Shown here: positions 12,222 to 25,588 of the stretch, one piece after another
How the letters are laid out: each line of letters begins with the position of its first letter
How positions within the stretch are numbered: the first letter of the stretch is position 1
DNA from: Streptomyces glaucescens
GTDB lineage: Bacteria > Actinomycetota > Actinomycetes > Streptomycetales > Streptomycetaceae
Assembly: GCF_002154375.1 (NCBI RefSeq)
Contig: NZ_MUND01000076.1
Span: 1 to 46,701 of the forward strand
Direction: 5' to 3'
Length of the DNA stretch: 46,701 nucleotides
The notes under the pieces: model-generated
Seen by the model: only the letters and a program-made list of their open reading frames with translations
Database searches by the model: none
What the model was told of the DNA's origin: nothing
Made by a program: the position numbers and the translations under genes

Positions 12222-15732
<3,511 letters not shown>

Positions 15733-15760
15733 CGCTCGCCCCGCAAGACGCTCTCCGTAA

Positions 15761-15794
15761 CCGCCCCGGTCGGCACACTGCCCGACCGGGGCGG
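15761..15794 (+). terminator. Hairpin terminator after icd
   Basis: A perfect 13-bp stem (15761-15773 CCGCCCCGGTCGG, 15782-15794 complementary) with an 8-base loop lies 28 bases after the icd stop. There is no T tract, which is common for Streptomyces terminators. Confidence 0.75.
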
Positions 15795-15838
15795 ACCCGT
15801 CTGCCCGTCCCCCGTCCCCGCATCTTCGGAGCCGCCCC

Positions 15839-16624
15839 GTGTCCCGTCCTTCGTTCGAGCTGCTGCCCGGTGCCGACGACTCGCCGGTGATCCTGCATGT
15901 GCCGCATTCCGCGCGGGAGATACCGGCGGACGTGCGGGCGGGGATCGTGCTGGACGACGCGGCGCTGGAGCGGGAGCTGGACCACATCGTCGACGCGCAC
16001 ACGGCGCGGATCGCGGCGCGGGCGGCGGACCTGGCCGCCGTCAGGCCCTGGCGGTTCGTGAACCGGCTGGCGCGGCTGGTCGTGGATCCCGAGCGGTTCC
16101 CCGACGAGCGGGAGGAGATGCTCGCCGTGGGCATGGGGGCCGTGTACACCCGGACCACGCACAAGGAGGTGCTGCGGGCGGACGGACACGACCCCGAGCC
16201 GCTGATCGAGCGGTACTTCCGGCCGTACGCGCGGGCCATGGCCCAGGCCGTGGCCGGGCGGCTGGCCGCGACCGGCCGGGCGGTGATCATCGACGTGCAC
16301 TCGTACCCGAGCGAGGCTCTGCCCTACGAACTGCACGGCGCGGGCCCGCGTCCGCCCGTCTGCCTGGGCACCGACTCCTTCCACACGCCGCCCGGACTGC
16401 TCGCCGCCGCGCGCGGCGCCTTCGGGGAGGACACCGGCCTGGACAGCCCGTTCAGCGGGACGTACGTACCGCTGGAGTACTACGGAACGGACCCGCGGGT
16501 CTGCGCGCTGATGGTGGAGATCCGCCGGGACACCTACATGACGGAGCCGGGCGGCCCGGCCGGGCCCGGGCTGGAGCGGCTGGCGGACGCGCTCGCGGCG
16601 CTCGTCACCGCCGTACCGCGCTGA
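15839..16624 (+). CDS. N-formylglutamate amidohydrolase family protein
   Basis: GTG 15839 gives 261 residues. [12 protein letters not shown] (residues ~19-30) is the family's metal-binding start, followed by [25 protein letters not shown], and [17 protein letters not shown] with further His/Asp residues. [11 protein letters not shown] and [11 protein letters not shown] complete the expected pattern. In the histidine degradation pathway of some bacteria this family splits N-formylglutamate into formate and glutamate; no hut genes are nearby, so the real substrate is uncertain. It stands alone after the icd terminator and is convergent with the 179-aa protein gene. Confidence 0.88.
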
Positions 16625-16645: not shown

Positions 16646-17185
16646 TCACGCCCGCATCCACTCCGTCACGACCACCTCCCCGCCGGTCCGCAACCGCAGG
16701 GCGAACGGACCGGTGCGCGGCAGCTCGCCGGCGAAGCGGCCCATGGTGTCGGCGGTGAGAGTGGCCGGCGCGGCGGGGTGCGGGCCGCCGAGGACCTCGA
16801 TGCGGGCCGGTTGCGGCGGCAGCAGCTGGCCGATCAGTCCGTGCGCGGTCACCTCGACGTCGACGCTCAGCTCGCCGGTGCGGAACGTCAGCATCCGCGG
16901 CACGTCGGTCGCGCCACGCACCGGGATGGCGTCCACCAGGGAGTCGAAGGTCAGCTCGGCGAGCCGGGCGTCGAGGTCGTGCAGGGCGTAGGCGTCCACG
17001 GCCAGGCGGCGCAGCTCTGGCGGGACCGGGTCGAGGATGGCCGCGGCCTGGCGCAGCTCCTCCTCCAGCAGCCCGGCCCCGAACTCCGCCTCGTCGAGGA
17101 CGCTTTCCCCGCCGAAGCCGTCGTCGGCGCCGGCCGCGCGGTTGTCTCCGTTGCTGCCGTTGTCGCCGTTGTCGATGTGGTTCAC
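16646..17185 (-). CDS. Unknown 179-aa protein of the sigma/S8-protease operon
   Basis: GTG 17185 overlaps the sigma gene's stop by four bases (GTGA) and has GGGGAGC upstream, so translation is coupled. I do not recognise the family. Residues 1-~28 are an Asn/Gly/Asp-rich flexible tail (HIDNGDNGSNGDNRAAGADD). Residues ~35-85 form an acidic helical part (LLEEELRQAAAILDPVPPELRRLAVDAYALHDLDARLAELTFDSLVD). Residues ~90-179 alternate like a beta sandwich (MLTFRTGELSVDVEVTAHG ... GPFALRLRTGGEVVVTEWMRA). There is no membrane segment or signal peptide. By position it could be a partner, inhibitor or substrate of the sigma factor or proteases; this is inference only. Confidence 0.8.
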   Translation of the reverse strand: MNHIDNGDNGSNGDNRAAGADDGFGGESVLDEAEFGAGLLEEELRQAAAILDPVPPELRRLAVDAYALHDLDARLAELTFDSLVDAIPVRGATDVPRMLTFRTGELSVDVEVTAHGLIGQLLPPQPARIEVLGGPHPAAPATLTADTMGRFAGELPRTGPFALRLRTGGEVVVTEWMRA

Positions 17186-17820
17186 GATGCTCCCCGTGCG
17201 TCGAGTCGGGCGCGCAGCCGGCGCAGACAGCGCTGGCGCAGCGGCCCGATGCTGCCGACGGCGATGCCCAGGGCGGCGGACACCTCCTGATAGCTGGGCG
17301 GCGGCGACGCCATCAGCACCCGCAGCAGCTGCCGGCACCGCTCCCCCAGCTCCTCGAACTCCTGCCACAGCCGCCGGACCCGCTCGCTCTGCGCGGCCGC
17401 CTCCTCGGAGTCGAGCAGCGACTGCTCCGGCGTACGGTCCTCGCTGACCCGGTCCAGCAGGTGCGGATCATCGGTCGGCGTCAGCCGCTGCCAGCCCCGG
17501 ATCACCTTGAGCGACTCGTTGCGCGCCGTGGTGGCCAGCCAGGATCCCGCCTTGTGCGGTTCGCGGATGCGGCCGAGGTGCTGGGCGAAGCGGAACCAGA
17601 CCGTCTGATATACCTCGTGCGCGTCGGCGTCGGAGAGCCGGTGGGCGCGCACGACCGACCACACCAGCGGGCTCAGCCCTTCCACGAGCGCCTTCCAGGC
17701 CGCCGCGTCGCCGTCGACGGCGGACTGGACGAGCGCGCCGACATCTGCACGGTCCACGGCCCCACCCCTCGTGTACGGCAAGTCATCGTACGCCGTGGCG
17801 GGGACTGCTCCGGTGTTCAT
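17182..17820 (-). CDS. Sigma-70 family RNA polymerase sigma factor (ECF-like)
   Basis: ATG 17820 overlaps the S8 protease stop by four bases, giving 212 residues. Region 2 is at residues ~30-105 (DGDAAAWKALVEGLSPLVWSVVRAHRLSDADAHEVYQTVW, then GSWLATTARNESLKVIRGWQR, the -10 recognition helix). Region 4 is at ~155-205 (LGERCRQLLRVLMASPPPSYQEVSAALGIAVGSIGPLRQRCLRRLRARL), with a helix-turn-helix for the -35 element. Regions 1 and 3 are absent, as in ECF-type factors. It sits between an intracellular subtilase and a 179-aa protein in one operon, so its activity may be controlled by proteolysis rather than by a membrane anti-sigma factor, of which none is seen. Confidence 0.92.
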   Translation of the reverse strand: MNTGAVPATAYDDLPYTRGGAVDRADVGALVQSAVDGDAAAWKALVEGLSPLVWSVVRAHRLSDADAHEVYQTVWFRFAQHLGRIREPHKAGSWLATTARNESLKVIRGWQRLTPTDDPHLLDRVSEDRTPEQSLLDSEEAAAQSERVRRLWQEFEELGERCRQLLRVLMASPPPSYQEVSAALGIAVGSIGPLRQRCLRRLRARLDARGAS

Positions 17821-19247
17821 GCGACGGCCACCGGCGGCTCGGCCGGCACGGCCCGCCAGGTGGGCGGCAGCAGCGCCGGCACATGCGCCCCGCGCACCTC
17901 CGCGAACTCGGTGTTCGCCGCGAGCAGTTGCCTGCGGGCGGCGCGCGGGTCGGTCTCCTTGTGCGCCGTCATGTGGGCGGCGATCAGCCCGGCGACCACG
18001 GGGGTCGCGAACGAGGTGCCGCTCCACTGCGCGAGCCCCTGGAACATCACCTGGTCCGGCTTGGCGAGCGCGTTCTCGTCGCTGAGCACACCGGTGTGCC
18101 GGGGGAACTGGCAGGTGCAGCCGTAGCCGAACCCGTAGCGGCAGGCGTCGTACGTGGAGTGCTGGTACACGTACGGCACCGGGGCGGCCCAGCCGGTCAG
18201 GGGGCCGGTCAGGCGCTCGCCGGGGGCGTAGACTTTCACCCAGGCCCCGTGGTTGCTGAAGCAGGCGCCGAACTCGCCGTCGCCGCGCAGCGCGCCGACC
18301 GACAGCACGCTGTCCTGCCACTCGGGCAGGTCGGCGTAGGCGGCGGGCCAGAAGGGGGTGGCGCTGGCGTTGTTGCCGGCGCAGGCGACGAGCAGGGTGT
18401 GCTGCTCGCGCAGTTCCTCCATGAACGCCTGGACGCCGAGGAGTCCGTCGGTACGGCCGTTGGAGGTGCCCGCGGAGAGGCTGAGGATGTCGGGCCAGCC
18501 GCTCGCGTCGACCGCGTCGAAGAGTCTCTCGCCGAACTCCGACTCCAGGATCGCCCCGGCGTCGTTCAGCGAGTTCCGCACGGTGACGTCGGTGTTGGGC
18601 GCGACGGCGGCGACCAGCCCGGCGATGAACGTGCCGTGTCCGACGTACTGCTGGAGGACGCCCTGCTCGTCGGTCTCCTGGAGCTGGAGGTCGCCGTCGG
18701 TGTGCGCGAGCAGCGGGTAGGAGCGGTAGTCGCTCATCAGGCCGGTGTCGACGACGAGGACGCCGACGGCGGTGTCCGGGTCGTGCAGGCCCTCCGCGGC
18801 GGCCGGGTTCGGCGGCTCGTGCGGCGGTGCGGGGGCGGGTTCGTCGCCGGGGCAGGCGTTGACCGCGATCGACACCACGTGGTTGCGGCTGACCAGCCGG
18901 CGGCCCGCGCGGCCCTCCGCCTGCCGCAGCGCCCGCAGCGCGCCCGCCACCGCCCGGTCCGCGCCCGGGGCGCCCTCCCCGGGGTCGCCGACCTGGATCC
19001 GGGTGATGCCGGAGCGGTTCCGTCGCGGGCTCGCCCGGCGCACCGTGTCGGGGGTGAGGTCGGGCGCCTGGGTGAAGAAGGTGCGCACGGCGTCCTCGAC
19101 GATCTCGGCCTCCTCGCCGTCGCGGGCGAGGACGACGCCCTTCTCGTAGAGGAACTCCGCGGAGTCGTCCGGTCCCATGGCGAGCGGGACGTCTCGCATC
19201 GCGCGCTGGATCTGGTCGAACTGCTCCCGGAATCGCTGTGGTGCCAT
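17817..19247 (-). CDS. S8 (subtilisin-like) serine peptidase without signal peptide
   Basis: ATG 19247 (GGGGAGGAAAAC upstream) gives 476 residues. The catalytic triad is intact: Asp167 in VLVVDTGL, His204 in YVGHGTFIAG and Ser412 in SGTSFATPVVAG; CAGNN at 289-293 supplies the oxyanion Asn. No signal peptide or membrane segment is present, so it should act inside the cell. Residues 1-~155 form an N-terminal extension not found in secreted subtilases, containing FLYEKGVVLARDGEEAEIVEDAVRTFF and VSRNHVVSIAVNACPGDEP, possibly a regulatory or pro-domain. Four Cys (CRYGFGYGCTC and C329) lie near the active site. It heads an operon with the sigma factor and the 179-aa protein and is divergent from the TPR-CHAT gene. 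Confidence 0.93.
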   Translation of the reverse strand: MAPQRFREQFDQIQRAMRDVPLAMGPDDSAEFLYEKGVVLARDGEEAEIVEDAVRTFFTQAPDLTPDTVRRASPRRNRSGITRIQVGDPGEGAPGADRAVAGALRALRQAEGRAGRRLVSRNHVVSIAVNACPGDEPAPAPPHEPPNPAAAEGLHDPDTAVGVLVVDTGLMSDYRSYPLLAHTDGDLQLQETDEQGVLQQYVGHGTFIAGLVAAVAPNTDVTVRNSLNDAGAILESEFGERLFDAVDASGWPDILSLSAGTSNGRTDGLLGVQAFMEELREQHTLLVACAGNNASATPFWPAAYADLPEWQDSVLSVGALRGDGEFGACFSNHGAWVKVYAPGERLTGPLTGWAAPVPYVYQHSTYDACRYGFGYGCTCQFPRHTGVLSDENALAKPDQVMFQGLAQWSGTSFATPVVAGLIAAHMTAHKETDPRAARRQLLAANTEFAEVRGAHVPALLPPTWRAVPAEPPVAVA

Positions 19248-19303
19248 GGCGTTTTCCTCCCCGTTGTCGCGACGTTCGTCAACTAGAGCCGTGATGTCGC
19301 CGA

Positions 19304-19312
19304 CTGATACAG
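19304..19312. promoter_or_regulatory. CTGATACAG motif in the S8 / CHAT divergent region
   Basis: The same 9-mer also occurs at 24161-24169 in the LuxR/metalloprotease divergent region. It is AT-rich for this genome. It could be a shared binding site, but two short matches are weak evidence. Confidence 0.25.
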
Positions 19313-19353
19313 AGACGAATCGGTGGCCCGTGGTTCCGCGCGGCGGCGGCCAC

Positions 19354-19359
19354 TACCAT
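19354..19359 (+). promoter_or_regulatory. -10 box suggesting a leaderless TPR-CHAT transcript
   Basis: TACCAT (TAnnnT) ends seven bases before the GTG start at 19367, the spacing expected when transcription begins at the start codon. No ribosome site precedes the GTG, consistent with a leaderless message. No clear -35 hexamer is visible, so an alternative sigma factor or an activator could be needed. Confidence 0.4.
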
Positions 19360-19366
19360 CCGTGGG

Positions 19367-21970
19367 GTGAGAGCGGGAAGCGACTCGGTTCTCGAACTGC
19401 TGCCGATGGTGTTCGCCGCCCCCAACGAGGCGCTGGACCGGGCCCAGGAGGTGCTCGCCACCGGTCCCTCACCGCTGCACGCCTCCGTGGCGCACCAGGT
19501 GATCGGCATCTGGCAGCGGGACTTCGGCGATCTGCGGATCGCCCTGCACCATCTGCGGCGTGCCCGCGACCTGGCGGCGCGCGCGGACTCAGCGGAGCGG
19601 GAGGCGGACGTCCTCGGCACGCTCGGCGTGGCCCTGGTGCACGCGGGCCGCACCCGGCAGGGCCTCGCGGCGTTCGACCGGGGCGTGGCGCGGGGCACGG
19701 GGCACACCCGGGCGCGGGTGCGGTATCGCCGGGCGTACGTGTGGTGGGTGCTCGGCCATCACCGCGAGGCGCTGGAGGACGTACGCCGGGCGATTCCCGT
19801 GCTGCGGCAGGCGGACGACGTGATCTGGACCGCGCGGGCGCTGACGCTGCGGGCGACCGTGCACCTGGCGCTGGGCGCGGTGGAGCGGGCGGACGCCGAC
19901 TTCACGGCCGCGGAGGCGCTGTGGGAGACCACCGGCCAGGAGCACGACAAGGCCGACGCGGTGGAGAGCCGGGGGCTGGCCGCGTTCCGGTCCGGGGACA
20001 TCCCGGCCGCGCTGCGGCTGCTGGACGAGGCGGAGGAGCGGTACGCCAAGCTGGGCACGCCGACGTTCATGCTGAACATCCGGCGCTGCGAGGTGCTGAT
20101 GGCGGCCGGTCTGGCCCCGGAGGCGCTGGCCGAGGCGGACGCGGCGATCGCCGTCCTGGACGGCATGGGCGGGCAGTCCACCCGCAAGGCCGAGCTGCTG
20201 CTCGCCGCGGCGCGCGCGGCCCGGCTGGCGGGCGACCCGCACACCGCGATAGCCCGCGCGGCGGTGGCGGTGCGGCTGTTCGCCGGGCAGCGGCGCACCT
20301 GGTGGGAGACGCATGCCCGGCTGGTGCTCATCGAGGCGCGGGTCGCCGCGGGGCGCTGCTCGGGCCGGCTGGTCGCGGACGCCGCCGCGGTGGCCGAGCG
20401 GCTGGCGTCGTTCGGGGCGCCCGCCGCGCCGGAGGCGTCGCTGCTGGCGGGCCGGATCGCGCTGGCCCTGGGCTGGACGGCGGACGCGGAACGCCATCTG
20501 GCGGTGGCCGCGCGCAGCCGGCACAGCGGGCCGCCGCTGGCCCGGATGACGGGGTGGGCGGCGCAGGCGCTGCGGGCCCGGGCGGCCGGGTCTGCGCGGG
20601 GCGTGCTGGAGGCGTGCCGGCGCGGTCTCGACGTCCTCGACGACCACCGCATGACGCTCGGCGCGTCGGAGCTGCGGGCGCGGGCCACCGAGCAGGGCGC
20701 CGAGCTGGCCGCGCTGGCCCAGCGGGCGAGCCTCGCCGGGGGCGGGCCGCGCCGGCTGCTGGTGTGGAGCGAGCGCTGGCGGGCCACCGTGCTGTCCGCG
20801 CCGCCGACGCGGCCCCCGGCCGATCCGGCGCTGCTGAGCGGACTGACCGCGTTCCGGGAGATCGCGGCCCGCGCGGAGGCGGCCCGCTGGGAGGGCCGCC
20901 CCATAACGGCGCTGGAGCGCGAACAGCGGCGGCTGGAGCGGGAGGTGCGGTCCCGGACGCTGCACATCCGCGGGGACGCGCCCGGCGACGGGCACCGCTT
21001 CGACGTGGCCCGCCTGCTGGACCGGCTGGGCGAGACCCGGCTGGTGGAACTGGCGGTCCTGGACGGGCGGGTGCACGTCCTGCTGTGCGGGCGGGGCCGG
21101 GTGCGGCGGTTCGAGGCGGGGCTGCTGGCGGAGGCGGAGGTGGAGGCCGAGCACGTGCAGGCCGGTCTGCGGCGGCTCGCCCATCCGGGGGCCGAGGGCC
21201 GGCTGCCGGTGGTGGAGGCGGCGGGCCGCCGTCTGGAGGAGCTGCTGCTCGGGCCGGCCGCCGCGCATCTGGGCCCGGGGCCGGTGGTGATCGTGCCGCC
21301 CGCGCGGCTGCACCGGGTGCCGTGGGCGCTGCTGCCGTCGCTGCGGGAGCGGGTGGTCAGCGTGTCGCCGTCGGCGAGCAGCTGGCTGCGGGCCCGGGAG
21401 ACCGAGCCGCCGCCGGGCGGCGGGCAGGTGCTGGTCCGCGGGCCGGGCCTGGCGACCGGTGGCGCGGAGGTGCCCGAGGTGGCCGACCGGTACCCGCAGG
21501 CGCGGGTGCTGGAGGAGGAGGACGCGCGGGTGCCGCGGGTGCTGCGGGAGCTGGACGGCGCGGCGCTCGCCCATATCGCCGCGCACGGCACGTTCCGTGC
21601 GGACAGCCCGATGTTCTCGTCCCTGCGCATGGCGGACGGCCCGCTCATCGTCCACGACTTCGAGCGCCTGGACCGCAGCCCGTACCGGATCATCCTGTCC
21701 AGCTGCGACACCGCCCGGCTCGCCTCGGTCGGCGCGGACGAGCTGCTGGGCCTGGTCACCGCGCTGCTGCCGCTGGGTACGGCAGGTGTCGTCGCGAGCA
21801 GCGCGCCGGTCAACGACGCCGCGGTGGTCCCGCTGATGCTCGCCCTGCACAAGGGGATCGGCGCCGGGCTGTCCCTGGCCGAGGCCCTGCGCGACGCCCG
21901 CGCGGCCCTGCCGGGTGACGCCCTGCACCAGGCGACGGGGTGGGCGTTCACCGCGTTCGGAGCCGCGTGA
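19367..21970 (+). CDS. TPR-CHAT protein (caspase-like protease with helical repeats)
   Basis: GTG 19367 gives 867 residues. Residues ~30-450 are tandem TPR-like helix pairs (for example LGTLGVALVHAGRTRQGLAAFDRG; AVESRGLAAFRSGDIPAALRLLDEAEERY). After a linker, residues ~560-867 form a CHAT domain. Its dyad is visible: His740 in AHIAAHGTFR and Cys780 in IILSSCDTA, with PVVIVPPARLHRVPWALLPS before it and GTAGVVASSAPVNDAAVVPLMLALH after it. Both catalytic residues are present, so it is predicted to be an active cysteine endopeptidase. The TPR half likely senses or docks a partner. It lacks membrane segments. It is divergent from the S8 protease/sigma operon, 119 bases away, which suggests joint function. 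A type III-E CRISPR protease has the same architecture. Confidence 0.93.
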   Translation: MRAGSDSVLELLPMVFAAPNEALDRAQEVLATGPSPLHASVAHQVIGIWQRDFGDLRIALHHLRRARDLAARADSAEREADVLGTLGVALVHAGRTRQGLAAFDRGVARGTGHTRARVRYRRAYVWWVLGHHREALEDVRRAIPVLRQADDVIWTARALTLRATVHLALGAVERADADFTAAEALWETTGQEHDKADAVESRGLAAFRSGDIPAALRLLDEAEERYAKLGTPTFMLNIRRCEVLMAAGLAPEALAEADAAIAVLDGMGGQSTRKAELLLAAARAARLAGDPHTAIARAAVAVRLFAGQRRTWWETHARLVLIEARVAAGRCSGRLVADAAAVAERLASFGAPAAPEASLLAGRIALALGWTADAERHLAVAARSRHSGPPLARMTGWAAQALRARAAGSARGVLEACRRGLDVLDDHRMTLGASELRARATEQGAELAALAQRASLAGGGPRRLLVWSERWRATVLSAPPTRPPADPALLSGLTAFREIAARAEAARWEGRPITALEREQRRLEREVRSRTLHIRGDAPGDGHRFDVARLLDRLGETRLVELAVLDGRVHVLLCGRGRVRRFEAGLLAEAEVEAEHVQAGLRRLAHPGAEGRLPVVEAAGRRLEELLLGPAAAHLGPGPVVIVPPARLHRVPWALLPSLRERVVSVSPSASSWLRARETEPPPGGGQVLVRGPGLATGGAEVPEVADRYPQARVLEEEDARVPRVLRELDGAALAHIAAHGTFRADSPMFSSLRMADGPLIVHDFERLDRSPYRIILSSCDTARLASVGADELLGLVTALLPLGTAGVVASSAPVNDAAVVPLMLALHKGIGAGLSLAEALRDARAALPGDALHQATGWAFTAFGAA

Positions 21971-22295: not shown

Positions 22296-24134
22296 TCAGG
22301 CGGACCGTACCTCGGGCAGCTCCACCAGCCACGGCAGCGAGCCCCGGTCGCCGGCGCCGAGGCGGGCGTAGGCGCTGTAGAGGTGGTTGCCGACGGTGCG
22401 GACGGACAGGGTGAGGCGTTCGGCGATCTGCCGGTTGCTGAGGCCGGCTGCGGCCAGTGTGACGATCTGCCGCTGCCGGGCGGTGAGTTCGCCCAGGACC
22501 AGGCCGGACAGGGCCGGGGTGCGCGCGCCGGGGCAGCGGCGGGCCAGGGCGACGGCGCGGGTGCGGGCGGTGCGGGCGGCGCTCGGATCGCGGTGCACGG
22601 GGACGGCCTGGGCGTACGCCTCGGCGGCGAACAGCAGCAGGCCGCGCTCCGCCAGGCGGGCGGCCGCCCGGTCCAGGGCGGGTCCGTCCCGGCGGACGAG
22701 GGCGGCGGCGTGCTCGGCGAAGACGCTGCCCGCGGGCAGCCGGCCGAGGACCGTCTCGGGGGCGCCGAGACGCACCGCGTCGTAGAGCGTGAGGACGTCC
22801 TCGCCGGGGATCTCCCGGCCGGCGTCCGCCTCCTCCGGTTCGCCTCGGGCCGCGGCCAGCCAGGTCGCCGCGGTCCCCCGCGCCGTACACCCGCCGAGGG
22901 CGTCGTACGCCGCCGTGGCGTCCCCCGACTGCGCGGCGGCCAGGGACAGTTCGGTACGGCAGGAGAGGTCGTCCGGGTCGTGCCGCAGCCCTTCCCGGGC
23001 CCAGGCCGCGGCCTCGGGCAGCTGTCCGCGCAGCCGGGCGTGGCGGGCGCGCACGGCGGCGTGCCCGCACGGCACCGGATGGCCCTCCGCCGTCAGCCAC
23101 TCCCCCACGGGCGCGGACCGGTCCCGGACGTCGGCCTCGGTGATCGACCGGGTGAGCGCGGCCGTCTCGGCGGCGAGGGCGGAGCCGTACCGGCCGGGCG
23201 TGCCGGCCAGCCGCCGGGCCCGCAGCCGCCCGGCCGTGGCGCGCAGGGCCGGGCCGTACAGCGGGTGGGCGAGGCGGAGGCCGTGCCGCTCGTCGAGGTC
23301 GATCAGCCCGGCCGCCTCCAGGTGTTCGAGCACGTCCAGGTCGAAGGCGTCGGCGTCGGCCGCCAGCGGCTCGGCGAAGGCCAGCCGGTCGAGGGTCTCC
23401 CGCTCGACGGGGTCGGTGCGGTCGAGGACCGGCGCGGTGCGCACGCGGACGGCCGGGGTGACCGGGACGGGGCCCCGCCAGGCCCACTCGTCGGTGCCGG
23501 GCACCCGGGTCAGCAGCCCGTCCTCGCGCACCGCGCCCAGCAGGTCCCGCAGCAGCCGCAGATCGCCCTGGCAGAGCCGGTGCAGGCGCCGTACGGTGAG
23601 CGGTTCCAGGGGTCGGCCCGCGCCCGCCGCGGCGAGTTGCGCGGTCTCCTGCGGGGGCAGCGGCCGCAGGGCGAGCCGGGGCAGCAGTTCACCCGTCCAC
23701 AGCCGGGACACCGCGCCGGGCGCGGGCGCGCCGTCGGTGGCGACGACCACCAGGCGGGTGCGGCCGTGCACGGCGAGCTGGTGGACGAGGGCGGCCGAGG
23801 AGCCGTCCAGCCAGTGGGCGTCGTCGACCAGCAGCAGCCGTACGCCGGACAGCACCTTGAGCGCGCGGTGCAGGGTGACGGACTCGGGCAGCAGGTGCGC
23901 GAACGCGGCGAAGGGGATGTCCCGGGACTCGGGGCTGCCGGCCGTCCGGACACAGTCGGTGCCGCGGACGGCCTCCGTGACCAGCCGGGTCTTGCCCACG
24001 CCGGCCGGGCCGGTGACCACGATGCCGGGGCGGCCGGCCGCGATCGAGCGGCGGACCAGCTCCAGTTCGTCCTCCCGGCCGGTGAACGGCCAGGGCAGGT
24101 GAAGGGTCTTCGCGTCCTGTTCGTAAGTCATCAC
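22296..24134 (-). CDS. AAA-ATPase LuxR-type transcriptional regulator (LAL-like)
   Basis: GTG 24134 (or the adjacent ATG 24131) gives 612 residues. FTGREDELELVRRSIAAGRPG begins a STAND-type ATPase; Walker A is GPAGVGKT at 42-49 and Walker B LLLVDDAHW near 100-108. The middle (~250-540) is Ala-rich and helical, probably TPR-like. The last 65 residues are a LuxR helix-turn-helix (LTARQRQIVTLAAAGLSNRQIAERLTLSVRTVGNHLYSAYARLG). It is shorter than classical LAL regulators (~900 residues). It is divergent from the metalloprotease gene with an inverted repeat between them, suggesting that it controls that gene and itself. The inducing ligand is unknown. Confidence 0.93.
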   Translation of the reverse strand: MMTYEQDAKTLHLPWPFTGREDELELVRRSIAAGRPGIVVTGPAGVGKTRLVTEAVRGTDCVRTAGSPESRDIPFAAFAHLLPESVTLHRALKVLSGVRLLLVDDAHWLDGSSAALVHQLAVHGRTRLVVVATDGAPAPGAVSRLWTGELLPRLALRPLPPQETAQLAAAGAGRPLEPLTVRRLHRLCQGDLRLLRDLLGAVREDGLLTRVPGTDEWAWRGPVPVTPAVRVRTAPVLDRTDPVERETLDRLAFAEPLAADADAFDLDVLEHLEAAGLIDLDERHGLRLAHPLYGPALRATAGRLRARRLAGTPGRYGSALAAETAALTRSITEADVRDRSAPVGEWLTAEGHPVPCGHAAVRARHARLRGQLPEAAAWAREGLRHDPDDLSCRTELSLAAAQSGDATAAYDALGGCTARGTAATWLAAARGEPEEADAGREIPGEDVLTLYDAVRLGAPETVLGRLPAGSVFAEHAAALVRRDGPALDRAAARLAERGLLLFAAEAYAQAVPVHRDPSAARTARTRAVALARRCPGARTPALSGLVLGELTARQRQIVTLAAAGLSNRQIAERLTLSVRTVGNHLYSAYARLGAGDRGSLPWLVELPEVRSA

Positions 24135-24150: not shown

Positions 24151-24183
24151 CTACTCAGTCCTGATACAGGGGCGGTTGAGTAG
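24151..24183. promoter_or_regulatory. Inverted repeat CTACTCA-N19-TGAGTAG (candidate operator)
   Basis: Perfect 7-bp arms at 24151-24157 and 24177-24183 lie in the 95-base region between the divergent LuxR-type and metalloprotease genes. A dimeric LuxR-family protein could bind it. The partial copy GACTCAG occurs at 24189-24195. Confidence 0.5.
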
Positions 24184-24229
24184 ACCCCGACTCAGGCGCC
24201 CGGGGGCCGCCGGACGGCAGTCTGGGCCC

Positions 24230-25315
24230 ATGACCGCACGCTACTGCTCCCTCGCGCAGCAGCCCGCCCCCGCCTTCGCGCCGGGGCTGGCCGCCGAGCG
24301 GATCGGTGCGCTCGTCCGGGGCCACCGGATGTGGGTCAACGGCACCGTGCTGCACTACTACTTCTTCGACGGCGACACCGACGGCTCCGTCATCCCCGTG
24401 CCGGGGACCGGGGAGACCCGGCGGATGCCGTGGGCGGGCACGAAGGAACAGCAGGACGTCGTCCGGGAGTGCTTCGACGAGTGGCAGCGCCTCGGCATCG
24501 GGCTGACCTTCACCGAGGTCGGCGACCGGTCGGAGGCGGAGCTGCGCATCGGGTTCCAGCCCGGCGACGGGTCCTGGTCGATCGTGGGCCGGGACGCCCT
24601 GCGGGTGGGACTGCACGAGCGCACCATGAACTTCGGCTGGGACCTGACCGCGCCCGGGGAGCGCGCGACGGCCCTGCACGAGATCGGGCACGCGCTGGGC
24701 ATGACGCACGAGCACCAGAGCCCGTACGCCGGTATCCACTGGGACGACGAGGCCGTCTACGAGGAGCTGGCGGGCCCGCCCAACTTCTGGAGCCGGGACC
24801 GGACGTACGGCAACATCCTGCGCAAGCTGGAGCGGGACGAGGTGAACGGCGCGGTGTGGGACCCGCAGTCGATCATGGGGTATCCGTTCCCGCCGGGGCT
24901 GATCCTGGAGCCGGAGCAGTACCGCGGGGGGCTGCTTCCGCCGGGCACGCTGTCGGCGGCGGACAAGGAGTTCGCGCTGCGCTGGTACCCGCCGGCGGGC
25001 GCGCCGCGGCCCTGCGCGCTGGTGCCGTTCCGGTCGGCACCGCTGCGGCTGGCGCCCGGCGGGCAGGCGGACTTCACCGTGGAGCCGCCGGAGACCCGGG
25101 AGTACACGGTGGGCGTCTTCGGCGCCGCCGACACCGTCGTCGTGGTCTTCGAGGAACGCGACGGCGAACCGCGCTACCTCACCGCCCAGGACGACGGCGG
25201 CACCGCCGGCAACGCCACCGTCCGGGCCCGGCTCGTCAAGGGCCGCCGCTATGTCGTCCGCGTGCGCCTGTACTCCGCATGGGGTTCGGGAGAGACGGCC
25301 GTCATGTGCTGGTGA
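24230..25315 (+). CDS. M12-like zinc metallopeptidase with C-terminal beta domain, no signal peptide
   Basis: ATG 24230 gives 361 residues. The active site HEIGHALGMTHEH spans residues 150-162, with zinc ligands His150, His154 and His160 and catalytic Glu151, as in astacin/M12A peptidases. The preceding IGFQPGDGSWSIVG and MNFGWDL segments, and the later SIMGYPFP (Met-turn region), fit astacin-like enzymes. Residues ~270-361 form a beta domain resembling a pre-peptidase C-terminal domain (GGQADFTVEPPETREYTVGVFGAADTVVVVFEE, then ARLVKGRRYVVRVRLYSAWGSGETAVM). There is no signal peptide, unusual for this family; it may act in the cytoplasm or leave by another route. Divergent from the LuxR regulator. 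Confidence 0.9.
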   Translation: MTARYCSLAQQPAPAFAPGLAAERIGALVRGHRMWVNGTVLHYYFFDGDTDGSVIPVPGTGETRRMPWAGTKEQQDVVRECFDEWQRLGIGLTFTEVGDRSEAELRIGFQPGDGSWSIVGRDALRVGLHERTMNFGWDLTAPGERATALHEIGHALGMTHEHQSPYAGIHWDDEAVYEELAGPPNFWSRDRTYGNILRKLERDEVNGAVWDPQSIMGYPFPPGLILEPEQYRGGLLPPGTLSAADKEFALRWYPPAGAPRPCALVPFRSAPLRLAPGGQADFTVEPPETREYTVGVFGAADTVVVVFEERDGEPRYLTAQDDGGTAGNATVRARLVKGRRYVVRVRLYSAWGSGETAVMCW

Positions 25316-25367
25316 CGGTCGGATCCACCGCGCGGACCCGAAGACCACAGTCCGGCACCGGGGGAGC

Positions 25368-25504: not shown

Positions 25505-25514
25505 CTTCGCCGTG

Positions 25515-25588
<74 letters not shown>

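Follow-up and report, generated by a model that had tools for sequence, protein, structure and literature searches.

A conserved TPR-CHAT protease, subtilase, sigma factor, and 179-residue protein cassette of Streptomyces glaucescens and its possible role as a proteolytic sigma switch

The window analyzed here is the whole of a 46,701-nucleotide (nt) contig of Streptomyces glaucescens (NZ_MUND01000076.1; contig C872 of an 8.4-Mb assembly in 1135 contigs), and it carries four genes that are best considered together: a TPR-CHAT protease gene and, divergent from it, a minus-strand operon (19247–16646) for an S8 subtilase, an extracytoplasmic function (ECF) type sigma factor, and a 179-residue protein to which we give the working label U179 (Table 1). 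The genes of the operon are coupled by 4-nt overlaps, at ATGA between S8 and sigma and at GTGA between sigma and U179. A sequence-only reading of this stretch had proposed that the four genes form a proteolytic signaling system, and the coordinates, reading frames, and active-site residues it relied on, in both the CHAT protein and the subtilase, are correct. The CHAT protein matches the Pfam CHAT model at 100.3 bits (cut-off 24) and the sigma factor matches the sigma70-ECF model at 70.9 bits (cut-off 42.9); U179 has no Pfam match above cut-off and none in NCBIfam or PADLOC. In PADLOC, S8 has a generic subtilase hit and a weak hit to IetS, and the remaining three proteins have none. As that reading had also held, export signals appear to be lacking, in that a Kyte-Doolittle analysis, the only method applied, shows no strongly hydrophobic stretch in residues 1–60 of any of the four proteins; the hydropathy maximum of the CHAT protein (window value 1.88) is located within its CHAT domain. 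Its statement that no CRISPR component is present holds for arrays, since a scan of the whole window for repeats found nothing CRISPR-like; no search for Cas genes was made.

Table 1 Features of the cassette and its surroundings in the window.
Feature	Position	Strand	Basis or remark
TPR-CHAT protease, 867 aa	19367..21970	+	Pfam CHAT 1.7e-28, TPR_12 2.9e-8
CHAT dyad codon, His740	21584..21586	+
CHAT dyad codon, Cys780	21704..21706	+
Asp817 codon of the CHAT protein	21815..21817	+
S8 subtilase, 476 aa, Asp167/His204/Ser412	17817..19247	-	Peptidase_S8 7.2e-19
ECF-type sigma factor, 212 aa	17182..17820	-	NCBIfam TIGR02937
U179, candidate anti-sigma, 179 aa	16646..17185	-	disordered-looking N terminus, helical hairpin, linker, CarboxypepD_reg-like beta domain
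Arg90 codon of U179, candidate cleavage site	16916..16918	-	position computed from gene start
Predicted sigma promoter of the S8-sigma-U179 operon, TGTATCA-N16-CTCTA	19284..19311	-
LuxR-HTH / AAA regulator, 612 aa, probable extra target gene	22296..24134	-
Second motif site, CTGTATCA-N16-CTC, directly before the LuxR-AAA start codon	24143..24169	-

The four genes form one conserved system that recurs across the class and beyond it, and their proximity is not due to chance. A search of 199 relatives with the S8 protein gave 45 positive genomes, the host counted, and 40 stretches were taken around the S8 matches, comprising 30 Streptomyces-type loci (L037–L060 and L071–L076; 29 share the genus, and L060 belongs to a different family) and ten distant loci (L061–L070). 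All four genes are present in 30 of the 30 Streptomyces-type loci, with CHAT divergent. In the distant loci, in which S8 is 28–36% and CHAT 34–48% identical to the window proteins, CHAT and S8 occur together in all ten, and sigma and U179 lie nearby in seven. The complete set is found in 77 of 80 named loci, and the other three stop at a contig edge. Among the best 80 of 507 named records of CHAT relatives, 79 carry Streptomyces in the title, and the remaining one is 'Actinobacteria bacterium OV320'.

Profile searches of 296 genomes of the class (U179, A1, E<=1e-6; CHAT, A2, E<=1e-60; S8, A3, E<=1e-40) found U179 in 92, CHAT in 88, and S8 in 83. U179 and CHAT are both present in 84 genomes, with U179 alone of the pair in 8, CHAT alone in 4, and neither in 200; the corresponding counts are 78/14/5/199 for U179 and S8 and 79/9/4/204 for CHAT and S8. 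As related genomes are not independent, we quote no probability for these tables. At the cut-offs used, only S8 of the three is lacking in nine genomes, only CHAT in three, and only U179 in four; U179 stands alone in five genomes and S8 in one. Several of these exceptions are cut-off effects, since a divergent CHAT gene adjoins U179 in G151, G289, G325, G351, and G395, and a U179 gene adjoins CHAT in G181 and G235. Of 100 U179 places, 66 have CHAT and 60 have S8 no more than 10 kb away. The possibility that the four genes are rarely neighbors elsewhere, which would have spoken against the earlier proposal, is thus clearly contradicted by the fully occupied Streptomyces-type loci, by the U179-CHAT counts, and by the out-of-class loci described below.

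We also assembled 46 U179 loci from 40 stretches around U179 homologues (of which L146 duplicates L064) and the earlier stretches. Sigma lies immediately upstream of U179 on the same strand in 44 of the 46. CHAT is present in 33, counting loci where a contig end leaves only its TPR part, and S8 in 31 (both by manual count). Gene order and strands of the four families are shuffled between loci, an arrangement that favors function over inertia as the cause of their linkage. Sigma-U179 is located apart from CHAT-S8 in f21 genomes such as g41; a tandem pair of S8 genes stands next to CHAT, with sigma-U179 elsewhere in the genome, in L065 (4952–10249) and L066 (5936–11237). Outside the class, 19 stretches cover 20 of 23 U179 places (G563, G592, and G612 were left out), with sigma beside U179 in 16 and CHAT present in 12. 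In L332 (9746–19843), U179, CHAT, and S8 each occur twice in tandem, and one sigma gene was detected. The search of phages gave no match, and that of plasmids gave a single partial match (29% of the protein) in a 1.16-Mb Streptomyces chartreusis record.

U179 is predicted to consist of a helical hairpin and a CarboxypepD_reg-like domain joined by a flexible linker. A CarboxypepD_reg match is found in 29 of 51 family members (best E 9.3e-6), which points to a regulatory-like beta domain. Sigma and U179 are readable through in frame in two relatives, L070 and L128 (alignment A6), and an AlphaFold2 model of the L070 read-through contains two helices and a beta sandwich, with a linker of low confidence; Foldseek searches with this model return mostly sigma factors and a few beta proteins over ~100 columns. 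The linker contains one residue, Arg90, that is invariant in 51 of 51 diverged members. It is preceded by Val in 37 of these, Leu in 6, Thr in 4, Ile in 2, and Ala in 2, and followed by Gly in 20, Ser in 18, Ala in 10, Asp in 2, and Thr in 1, and the other columns between 83 and 96 are conserved in at most 37 of 51, with several gapped. The matching residues of the L070 model (284–291) have a predicted local distance difference test (pLDDT) score below 50. A wider set of 169 rows, in which some strains appear twice, has the Arg in 167 (107 Streptomyces-type and 60 distant rows). In the 20 out-of-class U179 domains, which are independent of the discovery of the pattern, Arg is followed by Gly, Ser, or Ala in every case (read by eye). 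Arg90 lies close to the start of the beta domain, and the linker around it varies in both length and sequence. Because it is a fixed residue within an otherwise free and flexible linker, Arg90 resembles a processing site, and we put it forward as a candidate CHAT cut site, a new prediction. The idea that the Arg is lost where CHAT is absent was discarded: G217, which has no CHAT match, shows a gap at Arg90, yet its shortened linker still has arginines.

The TPR-CHAT protein has the features of an intact protease. The His-Cys dyad is present in 39 of 41 rows (in L042 the gene is broken, and L068 stops at a contig end) and is invariant in 31 diverged CHAT domains. In a wider set, all 156 covering rows have both dyad residues and 155 have Asp817. 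The S8 catalytic triad is likewise present in 41 of 41 rows. The CHAT gene is shortened or broken in L042 (11572–13866) and L044 (6448–7767), and S8, sigma, and U179 remain open in both loci. A model of the TPR-CHAT protein (pLDDT 91.7; predicted template modeling score, pTM, 0.89) finds human separase entries as its top five Foldseek matches (2.3e-16 to 1.9e-15), followed by Csx29 (2.0e-15) and DdvA (8.9e-15). In a structural re-comparison (VIA) limited to Foldseek's own matches, Csx29/TPR-CHAT entries come first with Z up to 32.9, separase reaches Z 28.5 at the CHAT end (root-mean-square deviation (RMSD) of 2.9 over 301 residues), and DdvA reaches Z 23.8 (RMSD of 4.9 over 595). Among solved structures, DdvA is closest in sequence (E 1e-11), ahead of Csx29/TPR-CHAT chains (1.4e-8 to 0.0045); at the position aligned with Asp817, DdvA has Asp and the Csx29 rows listed have Ser. 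Separase is specific for Arg, and the acid that reads this Arg is, we presume, located near the position of Asp817. Residues 1–390 of the CHAT protein resemble ligand-binding TPR folds, among them MalT domain III (Z 25.9) and those of Rap proteins (Z 21–24), some of which carry peptides; this hints that the TPR sensor may bind a peptide or small ligand.

The operon is preceded by a recurring motif. TGTATC followed by CTC occurs in the S8-CHAT intergenic region of 30 of 31 Streptomyces-type sequences, the window included (L047 lacks it), mostly near -68 of S8. The pattern TGTATC-N16-18-CTC, derived from the Streptomyces sites, was then scanned within 600 nt of leading genes in 49 stretches from other genera (L061–L070 and L107–L145), and it precedes sigma in 11 of the 28 cases where that gene leads, S8 in 9 of 34, and CHAT in none of 22, with a background over these stretches of 0.010 per 600 nt. 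Where S8 heads an operon with sigma or U179, the motif is found in 8 of 18 (manual count). A stricter form, TGTATCW-N16-CTCTG, has 41 sites in 39 of the 296 class genomes, 24 of them within 10 kb of a U179 gene, and with up to one mismatch it matches the host genome at the S8 promoter only, against 18 matches for the reversed control. Another form, CTGTATCA-N16-CTC, has 24 of its 28 sites at the locus in 16 genomes with the system (13 at S8 and 11 at LuxR-AAA; manual count) and eight scattered sites in 16 genomes taken as lacking it, one of which, G001, in fact has the system, truncated where its contig ends. Over the 32 genomes together, the reversed control has 23 sites.

The second gene at which this motif recurs encodes a LuxR-AAA regulator. 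TGTATCA lies immediately before its start in 23 Streptomyces loci and in the window, and 23 of the 24 also have CTC in register (read by eye). The gene is present in 5 of 8 tested genomes with the system and in G001 and in none of 15 without it. The TGTATCA-N16-CTC motif would be a self-activating sigma promoter, a further new prediction, and these sites make it most likely that the sigma factor transcribes its own operon plus, in Streptomyces, a single additional regulator gene. A wide regulon was considered and set aside, the motif scans showing no third recurring target beyond S8 and LuxR-AAA. Additional motif sites, which we list as leads only, stand in L119 before an 843-residue protein that reads as LuxR-AAA-like from its start, in L125 (two sites) before proteins that read as LuxR-type regulators, and in L062 (~883 and below, minus strand), where the site points away from sigma and precedes a 182-residue frame that reads like a helix-hairpin-helix protein. 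A 397-residue frame without a Pfam match (24155–25348, minus strand), the 3' end of which overlaps the second motif site, is co-conserved with the LuxR-AAA gene in many loci.

Around the cassette, genes for a monomeric isocitrate dehydrogenase and an N-formylglutamate amidohydrolase (13129–16624, plus strand) flank it in most Streptomyces-type loci. A tRNA-Pro gene (anticodon ggg; 25514–25588, minus strand) lies ~1.4 kb upstream of the LuxR-AAA gene, and three tandem 74-nt repeats, 86–91% alike, are located at 2470–2691. The host genome as a whole has six CHAT matches and 83 matches to the sigma70-ECF model, 54 of them over cut-off (manual count).

From the linkage, the intact active sites, the invariant arginine, and the promoter motif we propose a cytoplasmic proteolytic sigma switch, a model that we hold to be about equally likely to be right or wrong. 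U179 would bind and silence the ECF sigma factor through its helical hairpin, at roughly residues 40–85. A signal sensed by the TPR half of the CHAT protein would switch on the CHAT protease, which would cut U179 after Arg90, in the linker between the hairpin and the beta domain, and the released sigma factor would transcribe its own operon from the TGTATCA-N16-CTC promoter. This would create positive feedback, with more S8 made where S8 heads the sigma operon, and in Streptomyces the freed sigma factor would also turn on the neighboring LuxR-AAA regulator. The CHAT protein would be made beforehand, as its gene lacks the motif, and the likeliest role of S8 is that of an output or clean-up protease, which could for example remove the cut inhibitor, and not that of the trigger. 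An anti-sigma role for U179 is favored because sigma lies directly upstream of it in nearly all loci, the usual place for the partner of an anti-sigma gene. Of the two routes offered by the sequence-only reading, sigma release through the 179-residue protein thus gains support, from the linker arginine, the position of sigma in 44 of 46 loci, and the structural resemblance of the CHAT protein to Csx29, separase, and the CHAT-containing anti-sigma DdvA. The other route, in which CHAT activates S8, loses ground for reasons given below, and for cell killing, also raised there, our analysis gave no evidence either way.

Several observations weigh against this switch. Family-model searches match U179 to no known anti-sigma domain family; divergent anti-sigmas are frequently missed by sequence models. 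The sigma-U179 read-through model has good domains, but its pTM is 0.44, and we claim no interface from it. The invariant Arg could instead serve sigma binding, and two of the 169 rows have no aligned Arg, one a fragment that begins after the linker and the other G217. As for the promoter, in other genera 17 of the 28 sigma genes that lead lack TGTATC-N16-18-CTC, this motif is found in only 1 of 16 cases where S8 is in a separate unit (manual count), and the reversed control of the TGTATCW form has ~41 sites in the 296 genomes (manual count), so that there is no overall excess. Because the reversed control is about equally frequent, it is the position of the motif that is special and not its number.

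A different reading of the same neighborhood is already in print. The grouping of these genes has been described as that of ECF54 (Huang 2015 and Casas-Pastor 2021, via the review PMC8999054), members of which have conserved carboxypeptidase, subtilase, and CHAT neighbors, and for which proteolytic control without an anti-sigma has been proposed; the passage of the review on this group lists control by proteolysis and names no substrate, cut site, or target promoter. On that proposal the neighboring proteases would hold the sigma factor inactive through its degradation and U179 would be a carboxypeptidase-related accessory, and it has in its favor both its statement in the review and the fact that S8 and CHAT are both intact proteases. 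We consider it unlikely here, since the match of U179 is to CarboxypepD_reg rather than to the catalytic domain of a carboxypeptidase, it is in U179 that linker constraint is strongest, and nine genomes keep U179 and CHAT without S8 at the cut-offs used.

It is equally improbable, in our estimate, that the switch is conformational, with CHAT binding U179 or the U179-sigma complex without cleavage and Arg90 acting as a binding or structural residue. The closeness of Arg90 to the beta-domain start would suit such a role, and DdvA couples a CHAT domain to an anti-sigma with no cleavage shown in the text and entry titles consulted (PMC4374960 and PDB titles). However, the catalytic dyad is complete in every covering row, and the variation of the linker around Arg90 is a better fit to a cut site than to a packed residue. 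Maturation of one protease by the other, for example CHAT cutting the N-terminal region of S8, which then destroys U179 or many cell proteins in death or defense, is very unlikely: S8 does have 166 residues before its catalytic Asp, some of them conserved, and CHAT-S8 pairs are separate from sigma in g41 genomes (L065, L066), but the S8 alignment has no Arg in its invariant or nearly invariant columns, nine genomes in which S8 is lacking at the cut-offs used keep U179 and CHAT, the linker Arg is retained in the three of these that were aligned (L137, L140, L141), and the PADLOC results are confined to the two S8 matches above.

The cassette can be compared with several known systems. The literature searched, which leaves out most subscription journals, contains no experimental study of the cassette, and the available portions of PMC7159879 and PMC8103513 hold nothing specific to it. 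The cassette shares with ECF54 an actinobacterial ECF sigma gene beside genes for a subtilase, a CHAT protein, and a carboxypeptidase-type domain, a likeness that comes from gene neighborhood alone and not from sigma sequence; it differs in that the review, in its portion on this group, has the proteases acting on sigma with no anti-sigma, whereas we read U179 as a cleavable one. EACC2-caspase neighborhoods (PMC8195603) likewise combine a caspase-superfamily peptidase, a TPR protein, and an ECF sigma factor, whereas here TPR and CHAT are fused in one protein and accompanied by U179 and S8. DdvA, the anti-sigma of DdvS in Myxococcus xanthus, where the DdvS promoter requires DdvS (PMC4374960), is the closest solved sequence relative and also a CHAT-containing protein that controls an ECF sigma factor. 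It is titled a transmembrane anti-sigma in the PDB, whereas the CHAT protein here has no strongly hydrophobic N-terminal stretch (by hydropathy only), and a separate protein, U179, takes the place of the inhibitor. Separase shares the TPR/helical array followed by a CHAT-like protease, but is a eukaryotic cohesin protease.

The nearest precedent in overall logic is the Csx29-Csx30-sigma arrangement of the type III-E CRISPR Craspase (PMC10028731), in which a TPR-CHAT protease, a sigma inhibitor, and an ECF sigma factor likewise share one locus. Csx29 resembles the CHAT protein in fold and sequence, with the Z and E values given above, and differs at the position of Asp817. The cassette differs further in that the window has no CRISPR array and in the presence of S8 and U179, and by sequence the U179 profile matches no PDB chain of Csx30 at E<=5. 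We tentatively suggest, while thinking the full statement somewhat more apt to fail than to hold, that the cassette is an actinobacterial, CRISPR-free counterpart of the Craspase switch, in which a separase-like TPR-CHAT protease cuts a soluble anti-sigma after a single near-universal arginine, in the context [V/L/T/I/A/M]-R-[G/S/A/D/T], and so sets off a self-amplifying sigma circuit with almost no other targets. The switch can be tested precisely and cheaply, as it comes down to one residue in U179, one 28-nt promoter, and one protease. If it is right, sigma control by CHAT proteases extends beyond CRISPR throughout the Actinobacteria, and the cassette offers a compact module that links a protease to transcription. 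The switch logic of type III-E would then have a wide CRISPR-free counterpart, and, on the fuller suggestion, type III-E itself would be the RNA-guided form of a protease-sigma design that is older or runs parallel to it.

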